A stretch of DNA of 34,734 bases from Treponema sp. (GTDB lineage Bacteria; Spirochaetota; Spirochaetia; Treponematales; Treponemataceae). The stretch lies in contig JAEELR010000153.1 in NCBI GenBank assembly GCA_016282835.1, forward strand, positions 1-34,734, in the 5' to 3' direction. The notes below the pieces were generated by a model. The model made no database searches. It saw only the letters and a program-made list of their open reading frames with translations, and was not told the origin of the DNA. Positions within the stretch are counted from its first letter, which is position 1, and each line of letters opens with the position of its first letter. Positions 3,910 to 26,577 of the stretch are shown piece by piece. Made by a program: the position numbers and the translations under genes.

Positions 3910-6900
3910 ATGTTCTTAAAAAGTTTGGAAATCTTCGGTTTTAAATCATTTGCAGACCGAACTCATATAAATTTTGCTGATGGAATTACTGCGCTCCTGG
4001 GTCCAAACGGTTGTGGAAAAAGTAATGTTGTAGATGCAATAAAATGGGTACTTGCAGAAAACAAATCTAAAAACCTTCGTGCTGAATCTATGGAAGACGT
4101 TATTTTTAATGGAACAGAAAAGCGTGCAGCCCTTTCCATGGCAGAAGTTACATTAACTATTGCAAACGATAAAGGCCTTTTACCACTGGCTGATTCAGAA
4201 ATTTCTATCCGAAGAAGATTGTACCGTTCAGGCGAAAATGAATACTACATAAACAATAATCAAGTTGGTGCAACAAGCATTAGAAAACTGTTTATGGACA
4301 CTGGTGTCGGTAAAGCCGCTTACTCTGTAATGGAACAGGGAAAAATTGACCAGATACTTTCTTCAAAGCCGGAAGACAGAAGATACCTTTTTGAAGAAGC
4401 AGCTGGAATTAGCCGCAGTAAAGCAGAAGTTGCCGAAGCAGAGCGTGATATTGAAAAAACAAAAATAAATCTTTCGCAAATAGAAATTGGTCTTGCTGAA
4501 ACTAAACGCAATTACGAAAGCCTTAAAATCCAGTCAGAGAAAACACAGAAAAGCAGAAAACTTCAGGAAGAAAAATTTAATTACGAACTTGATATCCAGC
4601 TTTTAAAACTAAAGGATTTTATCCAGAATAAAGCACGCCAGGAAAACGCAAGAAATGAAGCTGAACAGAAACGCGATAATGCAATAAAAGAAATAGAAGA
4701 AATCTACAGCACAATCAATGAAAATACAGATAAAGTAAAAGCCCTGCAGGAAGAAGTTACTGAAAACCAGAAGATAATCATTCAGTTAAACTCTGAGCAG
4801 GCAGGATTAAAAACTGTATTAAATCAATTGCATTCAAATCAAAGTGACATAAAAGAGAAAATAGGACAAATTGAAAACCGAATCAAAAATGTTTCTGAAA
4901 GAATTGATGAATATAACGAAGAAATTGATACACAGAATGCTGAACTTTATGAACAGAATAAACAGTTGAATGACATTTCAAAAAATATAGAAAGTTTTAC
5001 ACTCAACATTACTCAGTCAGCAGGTCAGGTTGATGAAAACCAGAAAACAATCGGTACAAACTCCGGTAAAATAATGAACCTGGATAATGAAAGAGCCAAT
5101 TTACAGAAGCAGCTTGAAGCAATTACAGAAGATATTGTTACAGAGCTTGATGCAAAACTAAAAGATGCAGGCTATTCTTCTTCATCAAATAAAAAGGCAC
5201 AGGAAGATTTGGAGCTGAATCTCAAAAAGATTAAAATATTTACGAGCGGAAAATTAAATATCTTTAGAGACTGGGCATCCCTTACTACACACTCAGAAAC
5301 TGATGTAAAAAAATTCAGTACTGAATCAGTTCAAATTTTTGAAGAACTCGAAAGAATGTTTACTGAATTAAATAAAGCAATTGATGAATACACAAAAACA
5401 ACTCCTCAGTTCATAGACGAATTCCTTTCTCCAGAAGGTATTATTACCAAGAAAAGAGCAATTGATTCTGAAATACAGAAAAATCTTTCTACAATCGACG
5501 GAATAAAAGAACAGAATAAAGAACTGGAAAAAATCAACACTGAATTAAATAAAAAAATAAATGAATACAAAGAAACTCTTGAAAAGCTTAGAATCAATCA
5601 GGCAAAGATGATTCAAAACATCACTTTCTGCCAGCAGCAGATTTCAAGATTAAAGTTAAGCATTTCAACAGAAAAAGAGTCTCTGGTTGAACTTGAAAAT
5701 GAACTGACTCAGGAAAATCAAAGACGCGACGATAACAGCGAAAAAATTGAAGAGTATGAAGAGCAGCTTGCAGAACTCCAGAAAAAAGGCGGTGAAATCG
5801 CTGACAAGCTTATACAGCTCGACAACCTTATAAAAGAATGCAACAGCAAAGTTTCCGGCAAAGAATCTGCATTACAGAAGAAACAGGACGAAAGAAACCG
5901 ATATCAGGCTCAGTACGAAAAGTTCAGCATGGATATTGTACAGACTGACACTGAAATCAGGAACGTAAAGCAAAACTTCCAGGATAATAATTCAAGGGAT
6001 TTAATGGAATTCGAAGAAAAGATGTACACAATAAAAGCATCTCCTCTCGAATTAAAATCAAAGCTTGCAGAGGTAAAACAGAAGATTCAGGAGCTTGGTT
6101 CAGTAAACCACATGGCTGTTGAACTGTTTGCAGAAGAAAAAGAAAGATACGAAAGACAGCAGGCAAACTTTAATGACACGAAAAAAACTCTGGAAAATCT
6201 TGTGCGTGTCAGCGAAGAAATCAGAACAAAATCTTCTGAGATGTTCCTTGAAACTTATAACATCATCAGAAAGAATTTCCATAACCGCTTCAGACGACTG
6301 TTCAATGGTGGAAAGGCTGAACTCAGGCTTAGTGATCCGACAAATGTTTTAACAAGCGGTATTGATATTTATGCACAGCCGCCAGGAAAAAAACTTGAAA
6401 ACATTTCTTTGCTTTCCGGTGGTGAAAAAACAATGACTGCAGTAGCTTTACTGTTTGCAACTTATCAGGTAAGACCTAGTCCGTTCTGTTTACTTGATGA
6501 AATTGATGCAGCTTTAGACGATAAAAATGTTTCAAGCTTTGTAAGCACTTTGCACGACTTTGCTAATGTCAGCCAGTATATTGTAATTACTCACAACAGG
6601 AAAACTGTAGTTGCAGCTTCAAGTCTTTTGGGTGTTACCATGGAAGAAAGCGGAATTACAAAAGTTGTTCAAATCAGACTTGATGAAGACATGAAAAACG
6701 GAAAAGCAGTCTTTGAAGAAGATGATAATTTTGTTGAAGAAGATGTTGCTCCTGAAGAAGGAATTGTAATTCCCCCTCGCCCGCCAAGACGTGAACATAA
6801 TCCTGACGGAAGTGTTAAGATTAAAGTTAAGGATGAAAGTACTGGCGACGAAAATACAGAAGCTTTAGAAACAGATAATGATGCAGAAGTAAATAATGCT

Positions 6901-6978
6901 GAAGCTGAAGTTGAAGCTGAAAATGAAGAAAGTTCTAACGAGACGACAGAGACAGAAGCTTCATCACAAGCAGAATAA
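3910..6978 (+). CDS. smc: SMC-type chromosome segregation ATPase, short form with no recognisable hinge
   Basis: Chromosome condensation/segregation ATPase of the SMC family. The N-terminal head starts with the diagnostic MFLKSLEIFGFKSFAD, then Walker A GPNGCGKS (31-38), an IKWVLAE segment, and a head that ends near residue 170. Long coiled coil follows (about 175-395 and 515-790). The C-terminal head has the ABC signature LLSGGEKT (834-841) and Walker B PFCLLDEIDAALD (858-870), then an H-loop (ITHN). Bacterial SMCs are usually about 1150-1200 aa; this one is 1022 aa, and about 110 of those form a Glu/Asp-rich tail after the head. The region expected to hold the hinge (about 395-515) lacks the usual glycine-rich hinge motifs and the AIEAALG-like segment. 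No scpA or scpB is adjacent. It is followed by 16996-type envelope genes in the same direction, beginning 17 bp after the stop codon. Confidence 0.9.
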   Translation: MFLKSLEIFGFKSFADRTHINFADGITALLGPNGCGKSNVVDAIKWVLAENKSKNLRAESMEDVIFNGTEKRAALSMAEVTLTIANDKGLLPLADSEISIRRRLYRSGENEYYINNNQVGATSIRKLFMDTGVGKAAYSVMEQGKIDQILSSKPEDRRYLFEEAAGISRSKAEVAEAERDIEKTKINLSQIEIGLAETKRNYESLKIQSEKTQKSRKLQEEKFNYELDIQLLKLKDFIQNKARQENARNEAEQKRDNAIKEIEEIYSTINENTDKVKALQEEVTENQKIIIQLNSEQAGLKTVLNQLHSNQSDIKEKIGQIENRIKNVSERIDEYNEEIDTQNAELYEQNKQLNDISKNIESFTLNITQSAGQVDENQKTIGTNSGKIMNLDNERANLQKQLEAITEDIVTELDAKLKDAGYSSSSNKKAQEDLELNLKKIKIFTSGKLNIFRDWASLTTHSETDVKKFSTESVQIFEELERMFTELNKAIDEYTKTTPQFIDEFLSPEGIITKKRAIDSEIQKNLSTIDGIKEQNKELEKINTELNKKINEYKETLEKLRINQAKMIQNITFCQQQISRLKLSISTEKESLVELENELTQENQRRDDNSEKIEEYEEQLAELQKKGGEIADKLIQLDNLIKECNSKVSGKESALQKKQDERNRYQAQYEKFSMDIVQTDTEIRNVKQNFQDNNSRDLMEFEEKMYTIKASPLELKSKLAEVKQKIQELGSVNHMAVELFAEEKERYERQQANFNDTKKTLENLVRVSEEIRTKSSEMFLETYNIIRKNFHNRFRRLFNGGKAELRLSDPTNVLTSGIDIYAQPPGKKLENISLLSGGEKTMTAVALLFATYQVRPSPFCLLDEIDAALDDKNVSSFVSTLHDFANVSQYIVITHNRKTVVAASSLLGVTMEESGITKVVQIRLDEDMKNGKAVFEEDDNFVEEDVAPEEGIVIPPRPPRREHNPDGSVKIKVKDESTGDENTEALETDNDAEVNNAEAEVEAENEESSNETTETEASSQAE

Positions 6979-6995
6979 TAAAATAAAATAAGGTT

Positions 6996-7382
6996 ATGGA
7001 GTTGATAAAAGATTTTATAGAAAGAATAAAAACTTTTATTCTAGAAAGTTCAAAACTTGTAAAAGCTCTGCTCATAATTTTATGCACATTGATTTTGTCT
7101 TCAATAATTATTTTACTGGTAACGCTGCCAAAAAGACCTGCTAAAAGACACAAAAAAGCTAATCCAATTGCAGAACAGGAACAGAAAGTAAATGAAGAAG
7201 AGTTTTTTAAGCCGGAAGAATTAAAACTTACTGATGATTATTATTATTTAAATGAAAAAAAGTTAATATGGAATGAAGATGATGTAAAGGAATATTTTAC
7301 ACTTCCTACAGAAGAAAACATAAAACCTTTAAGTGAAGCGAATGAAAAAATTGTAGATGAGATTTTAGGAGTTGCACCGTGA
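6996..7382 (+). CDS. Single-pass membrane protein, function unknown
   Basis: I do not recognise this 128-aa protein. It has an amphipathic N-terminus (residues 1-20), one strongly hydrophobic segment (about 23-45, ALLIILCTLILSSIIILLVT), a basic patch right after it (KRPAKRHKK), then an acidic, mostly hydrophilic C-terminal part. The basic patch beside the membrane segment suggests that side stays in the cytoplasm, but orientation is uncertain. The Shine-Dalgarno (AAGG) is only 2-3 bp from the ATG, which is tight, yet no better start exists. Its stop TGA overlaps the GTG start of the next lipoprotein gene, so the two are coupled and probably act together at the envelope. Confidence 0.6.
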   Translation: MELIKDFIERIKTFILESSKLVKALLIILCTLILSSIIILLVTLPKRPAKRHKKANPIAEQEQKVNEEEFFKPEELKLTDDYYYLNEKKLIWNEDDVKEYFTLPTEENIKPLSEANEKIVDEILGVAP

Positions 7383-16061: not shown

Positions 16062-16766
16062 ATGCTTAAGATACACAATATGCTTGAAGACGTTGTTATA
16101 GAACAAGTTAATCAACTCTATGATCAAGTAAAACAAAAGGAATCTTCATGGCTTACTTGTGATTGTGAGAATTGCCGTCTGGATACTATCTGCTATGTAT
16201 TGAACAGGCTTCCTAATAATTATGTTGTCAGCGGGCGCGGAGTAACTCACAGCTTCTTAAACAATAATACCCAGCTTTCTGTTGATATAAATAAACTTTG
16301 TATTGAAGGCATGAGACTTGTCAGTTCTGCTAAAAGACCTTATCACACGGATTTAAAGAACAGCATAAAAGAAATTCCTGAATCAGAAAATGCAACTTAT
16401 AACTTCCCGACTTTCTTCGGAAACATTTTTGATGGCAATACATTTGAACCGCTTATAAATGCAAGGGTACTTTTAAGGATTGATAATGAAGTTGCTGAAA
16501 TGATGGATGTAACTTGGCCGAATCCCTGTGTAACTTATGAAGCAACAAAAGGAAGCTATACATTCTGGATTGCCCCTATCAGTGCGAAAGAAGAAAAATT
16601 AAAAAGGGAATTTAATTTCAAAATAGAAGTAACAGCCTACGGTTACGAAGACACTCAGTACAGTTTTTCAATTCCTCTGGTAAGTGAAAAAATAAGCCGC
16701 CGGGAAGTTAATTCCTGCTACAGCTATAAAATTCAGGATATTTTCCTGTTTCAGACGAAAGATTAA
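16062..16766 (+). CDS. ComFB-domain protein with C-terminal beta-rich domain
   Basis: Residues 1-95 match the late-competence ComFB family: MLKIHNMLEDVVIEQVNQLYD, then a cysteine cluster C33, C35, C38 and C44 (TCDCENCRLDTICYVLNRLP), and NNYVVSGRG. ComFB domains in other bacteria have been reported as cyclic-dinucleotide receptors; that this one binds such a ligand is an inference. Residues about 120-234 form a second, beta-rich domain (PTFFGNIFDGNTFEPLINARVLL; YTFWIAPISAK) that resembles a carboxypeptidase-regulatory or Ig-like fold, an extension that ComFB-only proteins (about 90-170 aa) lack. No signal peptide or membrane segment is seen. GAGGT precedes the ATG by 6 bp. It lies upstream of DUF4912 and GH57-like genes on the same strand but with a 129-bp gap. 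Confidence 0.75.
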   Translation: MLKIHNMLEDVVIEQVNQLYDQVKQKESSWLTCDCENCRLDTICYVLNRLPNNYVVSGRGVTHSFLNNNTQLSVDINKLCIEGMRLVSSAKRPYHTDLKNSIKEIPESENATYNFPTFFGNIFDGNTFEPLINARVLLRIDNEVAEMMDVTWPNPCVTYEATKGSYTFWIAPISAKEEKLKREFNFKIEVTAYGYEDTQYSFSIPLVSEKISRREVNSCYSYKIQDIFLFQTKD

Positions 16767-20090: not shown

Positions 20091-21173
20091 ATGATGAAAT
20101 TACGCATATATAGTGTTTTTCTACTTTCACTATTCATTATTACAGGCTGTTCTAGAAATCAAAAAAACAACAGTAATAATCAGTTGGTTCCAGAAGATCC
20201 TGAAATGGAAAGCGGAGAATTTCAATTAAAATCCGTACTGGATTCTTATGTTCCTCAAAAAAAGTCCTATAATTTTTATCTGACTTATAAGACTGCTCAT
20301 CCGTGGTGGGATGCTGTTGCCCTCGGTATAGAAGACGCAGTAAAGCAGTTTGAAAGTAATGATGTGTACATTACTTATGACTATCTTGCTCCAGAAAAAA
20401 TGTCTGCCTATGATCAGATAGAACGGATACAAAAGGCAGCAGCAAAAAAAACTTATGATGTAATTGGAGTTGATGTTGCAGATATTTCAATTGTAACGCC
20501 GGTAATAAATAAACTGATTGACCGCGGACAGAAAGTTATGACCTTTTCCAGTTCAGATTCCGGTAAAGAAAATGGCTGTAAAAGAATTGCGTATGTCGGT
20601 AACACACATAACTATGAAGACGGAAAAATTCTTGCAGAATGTCTGTGTCAGAAATTAAATTACAAAGGTAAAATTGCAATGCTTGTCGGTAATCATGGAG
20701 CTCCGTGTCATGAAGACCGTGCACAGGGAGCAAAGGACGTATTTGCCCAATATCCGGACATTTCACTTGTTGATGAACAGTATGATGAAGATCTTGAAGA
20801 AAAAGCCTATGAGTTTACAAAAGGATTTTTTGGAAAATATCCTGATTTGAACGGAATCATCTGCTGCAACATGAGTAATTCAGTCGGAGCAGGACGCGCT
20901 GTAAAAGAAAAAGGAAAAACAGAACAGATTGTAATCACAGGAATGGATCATGACAAAAGGGCTCTGGAATATATGCGTGAAGGAATAATCTATGCCCTTG
21001 CCCTTCAGGATTGCTATGCAATTGGTTTTGATACAATTACTACCGCAGTAAAAATTGCTGATGGACTTCTTCCAGGTTCTGCATATCCGGAAATGACTGA
21101 AGAAAATACTGAAGTGTTTTTTCAAAAGGATGCAGACTCTCTTTTGAGTTCCCTTTACGGCGAAATAGATTAG
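20091..21173 (+). CDS. Periplasmic sugar-type substrate-binding lipoprotein partnered with a diguanylate cyclase
   Basis: Class I (RbsB/LuxP-like, Peripla_BP_4) binding protein anchored by lipidation: the signal ends in lipobox IITGC (Cys20 counted from 20091). The two lobes follow the family pattern. Lobe 1 has FYLTYKTAHPWWDAVALGIEDA and YDVIGVDVADISIVTPVI. Lobe 2 has IAYVGNTHNYEDGKILAECL, GKIAMLVGNHGAPCHEDRAQG, NGIICCNMSNSVGAGRAVKE and IVITGMDHDKRALEYMREG. The ligand is unknown, though sugars or AI-2-like molecules bind this fold. ATG at 20091 or 20094 is the start; a TTG at 20055 in frame would place the promoter inside the gene and is less likely. No Shine-Dalgarno lies at a normal distance. 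The next gene, 10 bp downstream, is a diguanylate cyclase; no permease or ATPase is near, so it likely senses rather than imports. Confidence 0.85.
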   Translation: MMKLRIYSVFLLSLFIITGCSRNQKNNSNNQLVPEDPEMESGEFQLKSVLDSYVPQKKSYNFYLTYKTAHPWWDAVALGIEDAVKQFESNDVYITYDYLAPEKMSAYDQIERIQKAAAKKTYDVIGVDVADISIVTPVINKLIDRGQKVMTFSSSDSGKENGCKRIAYVGNTHNYEDGKILAECLCQKLNYKGKIAMLVGNHGAPCHEDRAQGAKDVFAQYPDISLVDEQYDEDLEEKAYEFTKGFFGKYPDLNGIICCNMSNSVGAGRAVKEKGKTEQIVITGMDHDKRALEYMREGIIYALALQDCYAIGFDTITTAVKIADGLLPGSAYPEMTEENTEVFFQKDADSLLSSLYGEID

Positions 21174-21183
21174 GTGGCACACA

Positions 21184-23094
21184 ATGAAAATTAAAGAGAA
21201 TAAAATTATTTTCATAGGCGGAATTATTGTTCTTTCACTGATTATTACAGGCTATATCTGGAATTACCAGAGTACACAGAAACACACACAGCTTGTTACA
21301 GAAAGTTTAACTGATTTCTATATGGAAGAACTTATTAATCGCCGTGTTTCAATCATTTCTGATACATTAAAACAAAATTTTCAGTATATGGAAAATGCAC
21401 TGGACTCAATTACAAAAGAAGATTTGAGTTCTACAACATCCCTTAGAAATTATCTTGGAAAAATACGACGTCTTTATGGCATTGAAAAATTTTCCTTCGT
21501 GGATCAGGATTGTCTTGTCTACAGTGCACACTCTACAAGCACAGGGAAAACCCGTTATCCTTTTCTTGCCGTTGAACTTTCAAAACCTATTGTAACAACA
21601 GTTACGGACTATGGCGGAGAAAAACATCTTTTTATTGCACTTTCCGTTTCCAGAATTGAATTTCAGGGTAAAAAAATTACTGCCTGCTTTGCTCAGGTAA
21701 ACATAGCCCAGATGTTACATTCCATGACTGTCCGTGCTGACAATATGGAATCATATTTTAACGTTTACCTTAAAAACGGAGAAAGCCTTACAAATGTCCC
21801 TTTTGGAGGAATTGAATCCGGAAGAAATATTCTATCTGTAATTTATGAAAATGATACAACAAAAAAAAGCTATAATAAAATTTCAGAAGATTTTATGAAT
21901 GAAAGAAAAGGCAGCATCCATGTTCCTTACAAAAGAGATAATGCCCACCTTTATTATGCACCCGTAGAAGAAACTGGCTGGATTCTCTCAATTCTTGTTT
22001 ATGATAATGTGATTTCTTCACAGATAAAATCTAACAACCAGAAAATTGAATTTATCAATCATCTTCAAAGTTTAATCACAATCATTTCAGTCATAATTCT
22101 TTTTGTAGTTTTCATCATTATACTCAGAAAAAACTCCGCTCTTAAAATAGAACAGGAGAAGCATATAGCTGAAGAAATAAAAAAAGCATACGACAAACTG
22201 AATAAAGAAACTCAGGGAATGCAGATTATCCACTCAATCATTCATTCTGGCCCGTGGACAATAGAGTTTAACAGTAAAGGCGAAATAGAAAAATGTATCT
22301 GGTCACAGCCTTTCCGTCAGATGCTTGGTTATACATCAAAAGAAGAATTTCCTGACATTTTAGAATCCTGGTCAAAATTACTTCATCCTGATGATACGGA
22401 GCGTGTCATGAATGCTTTCTGGTCTGCTGTAAATGATTATACAGGCAATACTATTTATGATGTTGAATACCGCCTCATGACAAAAAATGCAGGTTACAAA
22501 TGGTATCATGCAGCGGGTAACCTTATCCGTAATAGCGACGGTTCACCTGTAACTTATGTAGGTCTCTTCATTGATATTGATGAAAAAAAGAATTTAAAAA
22601 CTCTTTCTGAAACTGATCAAATGACAGGCCTCTTAAACCGTGTAAGCGGAGAAAAACGGGTTTCGGAAGCAATGCAAGAGGGCTGTGGCGGACTGTTTAT
22701 ACTGCTTGATATTGACCATTTTAAATCCATCAATGATACATACGGACATGGAGTTGGTGACAAAGTTATTATAAATGTTGCACAAACCCTCAAATCAACA
22801 TTCCGCGAAAATGATGTTGTATTCCGTCTTGGCGGTGATGAATTTGCAGCTTATGCAAAATATCTTCGTACAGAGAAAAATGCGAAACGGGTTATAAAAA
22901 GATTTATTGACAGTCTAAAAGAAATTTCTATACCGGAACTGAATGGCAACCCGATTAATGCAAGTATTGGTGCAATTATTCTGAACCGCGGTGAAACAGA
23001 TGATTTTGAGCGATGCTATAAACTTGTAGATGACGGTGTTTATGAAAGCAAAAAGATTGACGGTCGCTCAGCTGTTACTTTTGCAAGAAAATAA
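21184..23094 (+). CDS. Membrane diguanylate cyclase (extracytoplasmic sensor-PAS-GGDEF)
   Basis: Makes c-di-GMP from two GTP. Residues 8-27 form TM1. A periplasmic Cache-like domain spans about 30-285, and TM2 (about 297-317) is followed by a short coiled coil. A PAS domain spans about 350-470 (WTIEFNSKGEIEKC; EYRLMTKNAGYKWYHAAG). The GGDEF domain has TDQMTGLLNR, DIDHFKSINDTYGHGVGD, an intact GGDEF (550-554) and an intact inhibitory RxxD site (R541 to D544, five residues before it). The protein should therefore be active and product-inhibited. TAGGTGG precedes the ATG. Placement 10 bp after the binding-protein gene, without transporter genes, suggests the loaded binding protein docks on the Cache domain, as LuxP does on LuxQ. 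Confidence 0.9.
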   Translation: MKIKENKIIFIGGIIVLSLIITGYIWNYQSTQKHTQLVTESLTDFYMEELINRRVSIISDTLKQNFQYMENALDSITKEDLSSTTSLRNYLGKIRRLYGIEKFSFVDQDCLVYSAHSTSTGKTRYPFLAVELSKPIVTTVTDYGGEKHLFIALSVSRIEFQGKKITACFAQVNIAQMLHSMTVRADNMESYFNVYLKNGESLTNVPFGGIESGRNILSVIYENDTTKKSYNKISEDFMNERKGSIHVPYKRDNAHLYYAPVEETGWILSILVYDNVISSQIKSNNQKIEFINHLQSLITIISVIILFVVFIIILRKNSALKIEQEKHIAEEIKKAYDKLNKETQGMQIIHSIIHSGPWTIEFNSKGEIEKCIWSQPFRQMLGYTSKEEFPDILESWSKLLHPDDTERVMNAFWSAVNDYTGNTIYDVEYRLMTKNAGYKWYHAAGNLIRNSDGSPVTYVGLFIDIDEKKNLKTLSETDQMTGLLNRVSGEKRVSEAMQEGCGGLFILLDIDHFKSINDTYGHGVGDKVIINVAQTLKSTFRENDVVFRLGGDEFAAYAKYLRTEKNAKRVIKRFIDSLKEISIPELNGNPINASIGAIILNRGETDDFERCYKLVDDGVYESKKIDGRSAVTFARK

Positions 23095-23171: not shown

Positions 23172-23177
23172 TAGTCA

Positions 23178-23268
23178 TGTACCGGGGTGGCTTTAAGTCT
23201 GAGATTATACCCGAAGTTTCGCACGAAACTTATAACCTGATCTGGATAATACCAGCGGAGGAAGTATG
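23178..23268 (+). promoter_or_regulatory. TPP (THI-box) riboswitch
   Basis: The conserved THI-box core is present: CCGGGGTGG (23182-23190), CTGAGATTATACCCG (23199-23213) and ACCTGATCTGGATAATACCAGCG split across 23235-23257. P2 pairs CGGG with CCCG, P3 is a short stem over GGCTTTAAGTC, and P4/P5 holds the pyrimidine-binding TGATCTGGATAATACCAG. An extra hairpin (AAGTTTCG/CGAAACTT, 23214-23231) sits between the P2 3' strand and P4. P1 would pair TGTAC (23178-23182) with GTATG (23264-23268, two wobbles), which includes the start codon. The Shine-Dalgarno GGAGG (23257-23261) is inside the aptamer. TPP binding should therefore block translation directly. Confidence 0.93.
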
Positions 23269-24300
23269 ATAAAATCTACTTTCAAATTTTTATTTTTATT
23301 CATTTCAATTTTATTTTTTAGTTTTACACTTGGTTGTAAAAAATCATCTTCAACTTCAAAAAATGTTGTCACTTACACTTACGACAGTTTTGCAGCAGAC
23401 TGGGGAAGCGCTCCTCTTCTAAAAGAAGCTTTTGAAAAGAACTTTCCGTACACAGTTGAGTTTGTAGACTGCGGGGATGCAATTGAATGTTTCTACAAGA
23501 TTCAAACAGAAGGTAAAGACTGCCTCTGTGATGTAATTGTGGGAATCGACAACAACTATGCAGGCGAAGTAATTTCTTCTGGAATTCTTGAAAAGTACAA
23601 AGCTAAAAATGCTGATAAGCTTTTATATCCTTTTTTACAGGAACAGCTTTCAAAGGATTACTATTTAACTCCATACGATTTCAGTCATTTTGCATTGATT
23701 TATGATACAAAAAGCTCTGTTGCTGCCCCTGAAAAACTTTCTGATTTAACGAAGGACATTTATTCTAAAAAAATAGTTTTAATGGATCCAAGAACTTCTA
23801 CTCCAGGCTTAGGCTTTGTTGCATGGACAAGTGCAGTTTTTTCAGATTCCGAATTTGATTCATTCTGGAAGAATTTAAAACCAAATATTTTATCTATGAC
23901 TCCAAGCTGGTCTCATGGCTGGGGAATGTTTTTACAGGGAGAAGCTCCTTTAGTAATCAGTTATACAACAAGTCCAGCATATTGTGTTGAAGAAGAAAAC
24001 AATGACAGATATATTGCACTTGAATTTTCTGACGGACATGTCATGCAGGTTGAAGGTGCAGGTCTTTTGAAAACTGCAAGAAATAAAGAAGGTGCAAAAG
24101 CATTTATTGATTTTTTAATTTCTGATGAAGCACAGGTTTTACTGCCTAAAACACAATGGATGTATCCTTCCAACAAAAATATTGAGCTTCCTGAAAGCTA
24201 TAAAAAAGCAGCTCCTTTAGTTCAAAAAACTTTATTTACTGATGAAAAAAAAGTTAAAGAAAAGACACAAAAGGTTATAAAGCTTCTTAATGAAAACTAA
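23266..24300 (+). CDS. thiB: Thiamine ABC transporter substrate-binding lipoprotein
   Basis: Captures thiamine or its phosphates outside the inner membrane for import. A signal peptide ends in lipobox FTLGC (Cys24). The mature protein follows the ThiB/TbpA pattern: VVTYTYDSFAADWG near the N-terminus, CDVIVGIDNNYAGEVISSGI, LTPYDFSHFALIYDTK and PRTSTPGLGFVAWT. SWSHGWGMFLQGEAPLVISYTTSPAYC and TQWMYPSNKN complete it; the tryptophan and tyrosine residues in these last segments resemble the thiamine ring-stacking site of TbpA. The length of 344 aa is normal. The gene starts within the TPP riboswitch and overlaps thiP by 11 bp. Confidence 0.93.
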   Translation: MIKSTFKFLFLFISILFFSFTLGCKKSSSTSKNVVTYTYDSFAADWGSAPLLKEAFEKNFPYTVEFVDCGDAIECFYKIQTEGKDCLCDVIVGIDNNYAGEVISSGILEKYKAKNADKLLYPFLQEQLSKDYYLTPYDFSHFALIYDTKSSVAAPEKLSDLTKDIYSKKIVLMDPRTSTPGLGFVAWTSAVFSDSEFDSFWKNLKPNILSMTPSWSHGWGMFLQGEAPLVISYTTSPAYCVEEENNDRYIALEFSDGHVMQVEGAGLLKTARNKEGAKAFIDFLISDEAQVLLPKTQWMYPSNKNIELPESYKKAAPLVQKTLFTDEKKVKEKTQKVIKLLNEN

Positions 24301-25897
24301 AGTTACTAAAGCATTTCGTAAAGCAATACTTATATTGAGTACAATTTTATTTGTATCAATTTTTACCTGCTTTATGATAATGCTTTTAAATGTTTTTATT
24401 TTTGGGTTAAAGAATTTTTCTCTCTGCAGTTTTGATTTTAAATCATTTATAAAAATCTGTTCATACACTTTGCTGCAGAGTATTCTTTCTACATTAATTT
24501 CTTTGATTCTTGGTTTCTGTGCCGCATACTATATTTCCTTGAAAAAAGTAAGATTTCTGAAGTTTGTAGATTTTTTTTCTGCAGTTCCTTTATGCATAAG
24601 TGCAGTTATTATCTGCCTTGCTTACATTAATATTTTTGGAATCAATGGTTTATTCAATAAACTTCTTGTAAATATTTTGCGCATCAGAAAAGCACCTTTT
24701 ACTTTCCTGTATTCTTTTTTGGGGGTAATTTTTATTCAGGGATTCTATAATTTCCCGCTTGTTACAAAAAATGTTTGCAACGCCATAGACAATAAATCTT
24801 TTATTCAGGAAGATGCTGCAAGAATATTAGGTGCAGGAGAAGCAAAAATATTTTTTAAAATCACCCTGCCTTCTCTGACTTCTTCTATAATCAACAGCTT
24901 GATTCCAATTTTTATTTTCTGTTATTTTTCCTTCATCATTGTTTTAATGTTTGCATCTGTAGGCAACACAACGCTTGAAGTTTCTGTATTTCAGTTTTCG
25001 AGAAAACCTTCTACTTTTAATCTTGCTTCATTTTATGCGTTAACAGAATCTGTAATTGCCCTACTACTATTTTATATTTTAAATAAGATAGATAAAAAAT
25101 ATGACAGCAACAAAGATTTTTATCTGGAAGAAAGAAAAGAAAAATCATTTTATATAAGCCCGTTAAAATTTATTGATTATGTTTTTATAACACTTTTTAT
25201 TTTGCTTTTTATTTTTTGCTTTCTCCTGCCGCTTATCTCGATTCCAGTAAATTCCTTTAACATTAAAACTGTCACTTCTGTTTTTAGATCTTCCGGGTTT
25301 TATACTTGTCTTTTAAACACAATACTTTTGGGAGCTGCTACTTCATTTTTAACAACCCTACTTTCAGTGACTTTCTGTGTTTTTTCAAGAATTAAAAAGA
25401 TTAAGCTTTCACGACTTGTTTCTATTTTGCCAATGTGTGTTTCAAGTATCATTATAGGCTTTGCAATTATTTTTACTGTAAGAAAAGGAAATGTATTCTA
25501 TTTAATTCTGTGCCAGTCACTGCTTTTTTTTCCATTTTCTGCTCGCATTCTGTTTCCGCCATTACAAAAAATCAATGAGGAAATAATAAACTCTTCTCTC
25601 CTACTTTCAGGAAGTTACACAGAAACAATTTTCAGGGTAATAATTCCATACTGTAAAAAAGGAATTTTAACTTCTTTAGGTTTATGTTTTGCATTAAGTG
25701 CAGGAGAGGCATCCCTTCCGCTTGTTCTTTCTATAAGAAATTTTGAAGTTCTTTCACAATACATTTACAGGCTTGCTTCAAACTACAGGCTTTCGCAGGC
25801 AAATTTATGTGCTTTTATCTTGATGATTATCTGCTGTGCTTTTTATTCTGTTGCAAATGATTCGTTTAAAACTTTTGGCAAGGGAGAAATAAAATGA
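24290..25897 (+). CDS. thiP: Thiamine ABC transporter permease
   Basis: Inner-membrane permease with two fused BPD_transp_1 halves in 535 aa, the usual size for ThiP. Each half carries the EAA-type cytoplasmic loop that contacts the ATPase: EDAARILGAGEAKIFFKITLP in the first half and SSLLLSGSYTETIFRVIIP in the second. About 12 hydrophobic segments are visible, with a basic linker (about 270-288, DKKYDSNKDFYLEERKEK) between halves. It overlaps thiB by 11 bp and thiQ by 4 bp (ATGA), indicating one translationally coupled operon under the TPP riboswitch. Confidence 0.93.
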   Translation: MKTKVTKAFRKAILILSTILFVSIFTCFMIMLLNVFIFGLKNFSLCSFDFKSFIKICSYTLLQSILSTLISLILGFCAAYYISLKKVRFLKFVDFFSAVPLCISAVIICLAYINIFGINGLFNKLLVNILRIRKAPFTFLYSFLGVIFIQGFYNFPLVTKNVCNAIDNKSFIQEDAARILGAGEAKIFFKITLPSLTSSIINSLIPIFIFCYFSFIIVLMFASVGNTTLEVSVFQFSRKPSTFNLASFYALTESVIALLLFYILNKIDKKYDSNKDFYLEERKEKSFYISPLKFIDYVFITLFILLFIFCFLLPLISIPVNSFNIKTVTSVFRSSGFYTCLLNTILLGAATSFLTTLLSVTFCVFSRIKKIKLSRLVSILPMCVSSIIIGFAIIFTVRKGNVFYLILCQSLLFFPFSARILFPPLQKINEEIINSSLLLSGSYTETIFRVIIPYCKKGILTSLGLCFALSAGEASLPLVLSIRNFEVLSQYIYRLASNYRLSQANLCAFILMIICCAFYSVANDSFKTFGKGEIK

Positions 25898-26577
25898 GTT
25901 TTTTTGTTGCAAAAAATATTCATAAAACTTATGGCACTTTAACTTTAGATTGTAATCTTGAGGTAGAAGAAAATTCCTTTACATGTATATTGGGACCTTC
26001 TGGCTCTGGAAAATCTACTTTATTAAAAATAATTTCCGGACTTGAAAAAAATGACTCAAAGGATTTGCAGGTATTTTTAGATGGAAAAGACATTACAAAA
26101 ACTGCTGTCGGTAAAAAAAATATCGGGTATATCTTCCAGTCCAACTCGCTGTTCCAGAATATGAATGTAGAAGAAAACATTGCATTCGGTTTAATCTGTA
26201 AAGGCGAAAATAAAAAGACGGCTTTTAATAAAGTTCATTCAATCCTGGAAGAGTTTAATCTTTCGGGCTTTGAAAAAAGAAGTGTTCAAAATTTAAGTGG
26301 CGGAGAAATTCAACGCGTAAGTCTTGCACGCACTTTAATCTGCCACCCGAAACTAATTCTATTTGATGAACCTCTGAGTGCTTTAGATGAATCGCTCAGG
26401 AAAAAGGCAGCAGAAAAAATAAAAGAATATCAAAAAAAATATAACTTTACCGCAATAATGATTACACACAATTTGGATGAAGCCAGGTACTTAAGTGATA
26501 AAGTTTATGTACTAAAGAACGGCAGATTTATCTGGAACGGGAAAATGAATGATTTTTCTGCTTCAATATTAGACTAA
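25894..26577 (+). CDS. thiQ: Thiamine ABC transporter ATP-binding protein
   Basis: Cytoplasmic ABC ATPase that drives ThiP. It shows Walker A GPSGSGKST (34-42), Q-loop at Q82, signature LSGGEIQ (134-140), Walker B LILFDEPLSALD (154-165) and the H-loop in MITHNLDEA. At 227 aa it is a minimal ATPase without a regulatory C-terminal domain, as expected for ThiQ. Its ATG overlaps the thiP stop codon. It converges on the RluA-type gene with only one base between stop codons and no visible terminator. Confidence 0.93.
   Translation: MSFFVAKNIHKTYGTLTLDCNLEVEENSFTCILGPSGSGKSTLLKIISGLEKNDSKDLQVFLDGKDITKTAVGKKNIGYIFQSNSLFQNMNVEENIAFGLICKGENKKTAFNKVHSILEEFNLSGFEKRSVQNLSGGEIQRVSLARTLICHPKLILFDEPLSALDESLRKKAAEKIKEYQKKYNFTAIMITHNLDEARYLSDKVYVLKNGRFIWNGKMNDFSASILD

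Follow-up and report, generated by a model that had tools for sequence, protein, structure and literature searches.

The window, a 34,734-nucleotide stretch of DNA from a gut Treponema, carries the gene for a sugar-type binding lipoprotein immediately ahead of the gene for a membrane diguanylate cyclase (Table 1), raising the question of whether this lipoprotein serves a transporter, as others of its family do, or the cyclase encoded beside it.

Two adjacent genes

The binding lipoprotein (360 amino acids) belongs to the Peripla_BP_4 family of type I sugar-binding proteins, scoring 186.9 bits against PF13407 (curated cut-off 35.1). Its lipobox reads I-T-G-C20, and the Cys and many further positions are invariant across 24 homologues with 49-78% identity to the window protein, bearing out the first-pass annotation of a class I binding lipoprotein with a lipobox at Cys20. 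The structural model (mean pLDDT 85) is matched most closely by CbpD of Clostridium thermocellum (7x0p; Foldseek TM 0.90), which is the best relative by sequence (6.6e-73) as well as by fold, followed by glucose, galactose, arabinose and ribose binding proteins and XylFII. No NCBIfam equivalog model scored above its cut-off for this protein, with the RhaS, allose, LsrB and ribose models falling far below their limits.

The model of the 636-amino-acid cyclase (pTM 0.41) runs from a long first helix through an alpha/beta outer region and another long helix to PAS and GGDEF, and sequence and model together indicate two transmembrane segments enclosing an outer domain some 240 residues long. The GGDEF domain match and intact signature motif place the protein among the diguanylate cyclases, with cyclase activity predicted on this basis; both this motif and the RxxD I-site, previously noted as intact, proved invariant across 24 homologues. 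Pfam finds no EAL domain, so the cyclase cannot itself switch to hydrolysis. The earlier description of its sensor as Cache-like finds support in the predicted fold, which Foldseek matches to the sensor domain of the Mlp24 chemoreceptor (6ior), and in the weak partial dCache_1 matches that 18 of 44 sensors show (E 1.5e-4 at best, below the curated cut-off), but not in a full Pfam match. Alignment of the sensor with the host genome's own dCache domains by hhalign gave no match, and the sensor sequence had no credible match in the PDB. GGDEF dominates whole-protein fold searches, which therefore barely probed the sensor, and a viral library added nothing.

The two open reading frames are separated by 21174-21183, the 10-bp spacing originally reported, and the ribosome-binding-like site of the cyclase gene overlaps the stop codon of the binding-protein gene. 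A scan for promoters and terminators returned no more than chance expectation.

Table 1. Features of the binding-protein and cyclase genes, in window coordinates
Feature	Positions	Strand	Basis
Peripla_BP_4 (type I, CUT2-like) binding lipoprotein gene	20091-21173	+	PF13407 6.4e-55; model best fits CbpD 7x0p, TM 0.90
Lipoprotein signal peptide, lipobox ending at Cys20	20091-20150	+	Sequence; Cys invariant in 24 homologues
Sugar-type ligand-binding domain, residues 65-325	20283-21065	+	Pfam match; conserved cleft-type residues
AGGTGG ribosome-binding-like site over stop codon, with 10-bp intergenic gap	21172-21183	+	Sequence
Membrane diguanylate cyclase, sensor-PAS-GGDEF	21184-23094	+	Pfam; model mean pLDDT 80.5
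Extracytoplasmic dCache-like sensor domain, about residues 30-273	21271-22002	+	Predicted fold; 6ior TM 0.55; weak dCache_1 matches
Candidate docking region, residues 112-148	21517-21627	+	Conservation contrast between sensors with and without binding protein; function inferred
PAS_3 domain	22300-22563	+	Pfam 6.7e-20
GGDEF domain	22609-23055	+	Pfam 2.8e-34
I-site RxxD (R541-D544)	22804-22815	+	Invariant in 24 homologues
GGDEF active-site motif, residues 550-554	22831-22845	+	Invariant in 24 homologues

The first-pass annotation was mistaken in placing no ABC permease or ATPase nearby, as a permease (24290-25897) and an ATPase (25894-26577) lie downstream. Both are part of a thiamine-type ABC set (23266-26577) that includes its own binding protein (TIGR01254, above cut-off) and is headed by a TPP riboswitch match (23173-23280; 51.7 bits against the Rfam threshold of 54.3). 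These genes belong to other families, have their own binding protein and are not conserved beside the pair, and therefore have no bearing on how the pair is read.

Conservation of the pair and its changing outputs

Among 196 genomes of the same genus, the binding protein was found in 30. In 29 of the 30, a count that takes in the genome of the window, it adjoins the cyclase's sensor, giving the conserved co-encoded pair expected of binding-protein-dependent c-di-GMP receptors of the NspS-MbaA kind. The GGDEF motif and the I-site are intact in all 29 pairs, and gene spacing ranges from an overlap to 87 bp, mostly about 10 bp. None of nine other window genes was conserved around these loci, apart from a generic ATPase at four loci and one similarity to pseudouridine synthase. 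The exception, L059, encodes a relative only 39% identical, inside a complete CUT2 sugar ABC operon. The first-pass annotation had named closest relatives that always sit with a permease and an ATPase as evidence against its reading; the closest relatives do not sit this way, and only the distant one in L059 does.

The pair extends well beyond treponemes. The best 80 of 299 binding-protein relatives were taken from a scan of public genomes, many of whose Treponema genomes are shared with the genus search, and they derive from Treponema (T. bryantii B25, XBD1002 and NK4A124 among them), in large part from Lachnospiraceae, and also from other Clostridia, one Atopobiaceae genome and one Lentisphaeria bin. 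At two of these 80 loci the contig stops right after the binding-protein gene; at all 78 readable loci a protein with the same sensor follows, with the binding protein always first. Together with the 29 of 30 genus genomes, this marks the adjacency as more than a product of chance. The sensor is kept while the output domain varies: the 78 outputs comprise 42 hybrid histidine kinases and 32 GGDEF proteins (25 with an I-site, 7 without), the other four being lost at contig ends. Kinase architectures include PAS-HisKA-HATPase-REC-REC (L081) and a version with no PAS and one REC (L106), with the remaining hybrid kinases assigned by their H-box motif. No neighbour family recurred in more than five of the non-Treponema loci among these best 80 relatives. 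At one Clostridia locus (L133), the binding-protein gene (6001-7032) is followed by a 515-amino-acid open reading frame in which AGDQY replaces GGDEF; its product shares the sensor and may be an inactive cyclase.

In a sampling of Spirochaetota the pair's binding protein was present in 1 of 167 genera, and this rarity, together with its frequency in Lachnospiraceae, suggests that the pair spread by horizontal transfer. In a tree of 94 sensors, the starred groups are two of partnered GGDEF proteins, one treponemal (22 rows, 99) and one from the rumen (7 rows, 100), and one of partnerless treponemal kinases (20 rows, 99); the partnered Lachnospiraceae kinases group at 92. The separate groups indicate that the GGDEF fusion probably arose at least twice, with L106, L129 and L210 being long branches of unsure placement. 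Taken as a whole, these distributions tip towards a portable cassette, consisting of the binding protein, the sensor domain and one shared gut ligand, that would move between gut phyla and be plugged into a phosphorelay in Lachnospiraceae but into c-di-GMP synthesis in treponemes and, on at least one further occasion, in Clostridia. They also point to a cassette that has lost its transporter.

The sensor profile matched in 52 of the 196 genus genomes, about 22 of which carry a lower-scoring variant, mostly on hybrid kinases, that adjoins no such binding protein. These partnerless sensors form a separate clade, bar one long branch. The positions separating partnered from partnerless sensors cluster at residues 112-148, in the first part of the modelled outer domain, making this stretch a candidate docking face. 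The mirror-tree correlations of the binding protein with the sensor (0.893) and with GGDEF (0.891) are non-discriminating and carry no information on contact.

The partnerless sensor kinases (L190-L212) have neighbours of their own. Those of L191-L197 adjoin a 564-amino-acid response-regulator-like protein, mostly a 110-amino-acid protein, and a protein of about 796 amino acids. In L210 (2268-6660) a divergent sensor kinase directly follows a 557-amino-acid lipoprotein-like protein with no assigned family, possibly a different partner.

Binding pocket and candidate ligand

Across 73 pair proteins, 100 positions are conserved, of which 69 are identical in CbpD and 71 in the transporter protein of L059. 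The shared residues include Y66, K67, H70, W72, D128, S155, D156, H207, E208, R210, N260, D286, H287, D288 and Q306, and by comparison with the type I family they would line the cleft. These cleft-type residues are invariant or nearly so in the 73 pair proteins and common to CbpD and L059. A further 27 conserved positions differ from both CbpD and L059 (for example P205, C206, Y231, D307 and F313) and may mark a new partner surface.

CbpD, a presumed transporter subunit whose ligand has not been found (PMC9601137), differs from the window protein in that role while sharing its cleft-type residues. Its pocket is small, near-closed and of a size to fit a monosaccharide, and it bound no tested carbohydrate, xylose included (PMC9601137), so that the likeliest ligand for the pair is a sugar- or polyol-like compound that the usual panels do not include. 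Neighbouring genes gave no indication of the ligand, as they differ at each locus, and AI-2 is not favoured because the LsrB model lies far under its cut-off. The CbpD-type operon of L059 (5277-13415), which may reveal the ligand class, encodes a polyol dehydrogenase, a split transketolase and a glycerol-kinase-like kinase, and rhizobial CbpD-type operons encode sugar kinases and dehydrogenases. These contents suggest a sugar or polyol, fixing none; apiose may be among the candidates.

A proposed receptor, its alternatives and its relatives

The two genes probably encode a single receptor, in which the binding protein, descended from a subunit of a CbpD-type sugar transporter, would have kept its pocket, ceased to serve transport and become a co-receptor, and its ligand-bound form would switch the sensor and thereby c-di-GMP. 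Held by its lipid anchor, the binding protein would catch its ligand, resembling a sugar or polyol, on the outer side of the inner membrane, dock on the cyclase's dCache-like outer domain and alter the sensor dimer. The signal would pass through the second transmembrane helix and a coiled coil to PAS and GGDEF, changing c-di-GMP synthesis, with the I-site giving feedback on the cyclase. As to sign, there is a slight preference for activation by the loaded binding protein. The same receptor could possibly work the other way, with the unloaded binding protein activating or the loaded one restraining the cyclase so that ligand lowers c-di-GMP, since the sign of some binding-protein-dependent receptors reverses from the apo to the loaded state; nothing direct speaks against this less favoured arrangement, in which an enzyme lacking EAL would itself be unable to turn to hydrolysis.

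Two other explanations deny the pair this partnership. That the cyclase senses the ligand directly through its dCache-like domain, with the binding protein merely co-transcribed, for example as a scavenger of the same ligand, gains some credit from the many dCache domains that bind ligands directly and from the related treponemal hybrid-kinase sensors that have no adjacent binding protein, which suggest that the sensor might bind a ligand alone. It is nevertheless unlikely, because the partnerless sensors differ at positions 112-148 and because the binding-protein and sensor clades occur together at every readable locus, even with a kinase output in another phylum. It is far less probable still that the binding protein does ordinary transport work for an unlinked CUT2 permease, with the cyclase next to it by accident. 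Its family, and the closest relative with a solved structure, carry transport annotations, and several pair-bearing genomes are rich in BPD_transp_2 permeases; however, adjacency is lost in no close relative with readable context, and no fitting permease was recognised in the draft host genome, leading to the rejection of a transport role. In this draft (93% complete, about 6% contamination) the window protein is the sole Peripla_BP_4 match above cut-off, and the five BPD_transp_2 matches look, from their gene make-up, like branched-chain amino acid permeases (with two ATPases), a Trp-type permease and a BMP-type permease with its own lipoprotein. No monosaccharide-type (CUT2) permease was recognised among them or beside the gene, and in G102 and G159, two further carriers of the pair, a Trp-type system is the only one of this kind. 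Since many such permeases occur in other pair-bearing genomes, the argument against a transporter rests on the host, G102 and G159 and on adjacency. The receptor reading, and with it the original proposal of a two-gene sensory module without a transporter, is thus supported by conservation in 29 of 30 genomes and by the lack of a recognisable CUT2-type transporter in the host genome.

In LuxP-LuxQ and TorT-TorS, a hybrid histidine kinase carries a type I binding protein on its outer domain. This is the layout of the Lachnospiraceae versions, whereas the treponemal version, the window's included, ends in GGDEF. LuxQ-periplasm (PF09308) was absent among the Pfam matches of 44 sensors up to E = 1, a search in which HMMER filters drop weak matches. 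In NspS-MbaA of Vibrio cholerae and Sinorhizobium meliloti, the control that a periplasmic binding protein exerts over a membrane c-di-GMP enzyme does not depend on transport (PMC8967002, PMC9993111). The window likewise combines a binding protein with a membrane c-di-GMP enzyme that it would control, but NspS binds polyamines and MbaA has an EAL domain, whereas in the window the binding protein is a lipoprotein of sugar type and the enzyme has PAS, GGDEF and an I-site but no EAL. In ScrB-ScrC of Vibrio parahaemolyticus a dual c-di-GMP enzyme is switched by a signal-binding periplasmic protein from the same operon (PMC10269520); this system differs in the dual function of its enzyme and in its three-gene operon, which includes a signal-making gene. 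XylFII-LytS and CuaD-CuaS-CuaR resemble the pair in dedicating a sugar-type binding protein to the sensor of an adjacent gene, as with CuaD, which controls the kinase CuaS (PMC10384115), but they have kinase outputs with a response regulator and known sugars as ligands. Binding-protein control of c-di-GMP enzymes and kinases is treated as a general mechanism in recent papers (PMC9602780, PMC11113362).

No report of a pair like the window's was found in open-access papers, in agreement with the initial impression that it was undescribed. A Peripla_BP_4 sugar-type lipoprotein dedicated to a spirochaete cyclase, and above all the same pair on different outputs across phyla, therefore appear to be new, provisionally so because the search covered open-access papers.

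We know of no signal for most cyclases, and here a ligand screen needs just a soluble binding protein. The answer would probably extend to dozens of gut species with the same pocket-type residues, whether their output is c-di-GMP or a kinase, and the pair family offers a natural series for studying how one extracellular sensor is wired to unrelated outputs.

Upstream of the pair, the window also encodes a 234-amino-acid protein with a ComFB domain (16062-16766; Pfam 5.7e-18), a family tied to cyclic dinucleotides in recent work.
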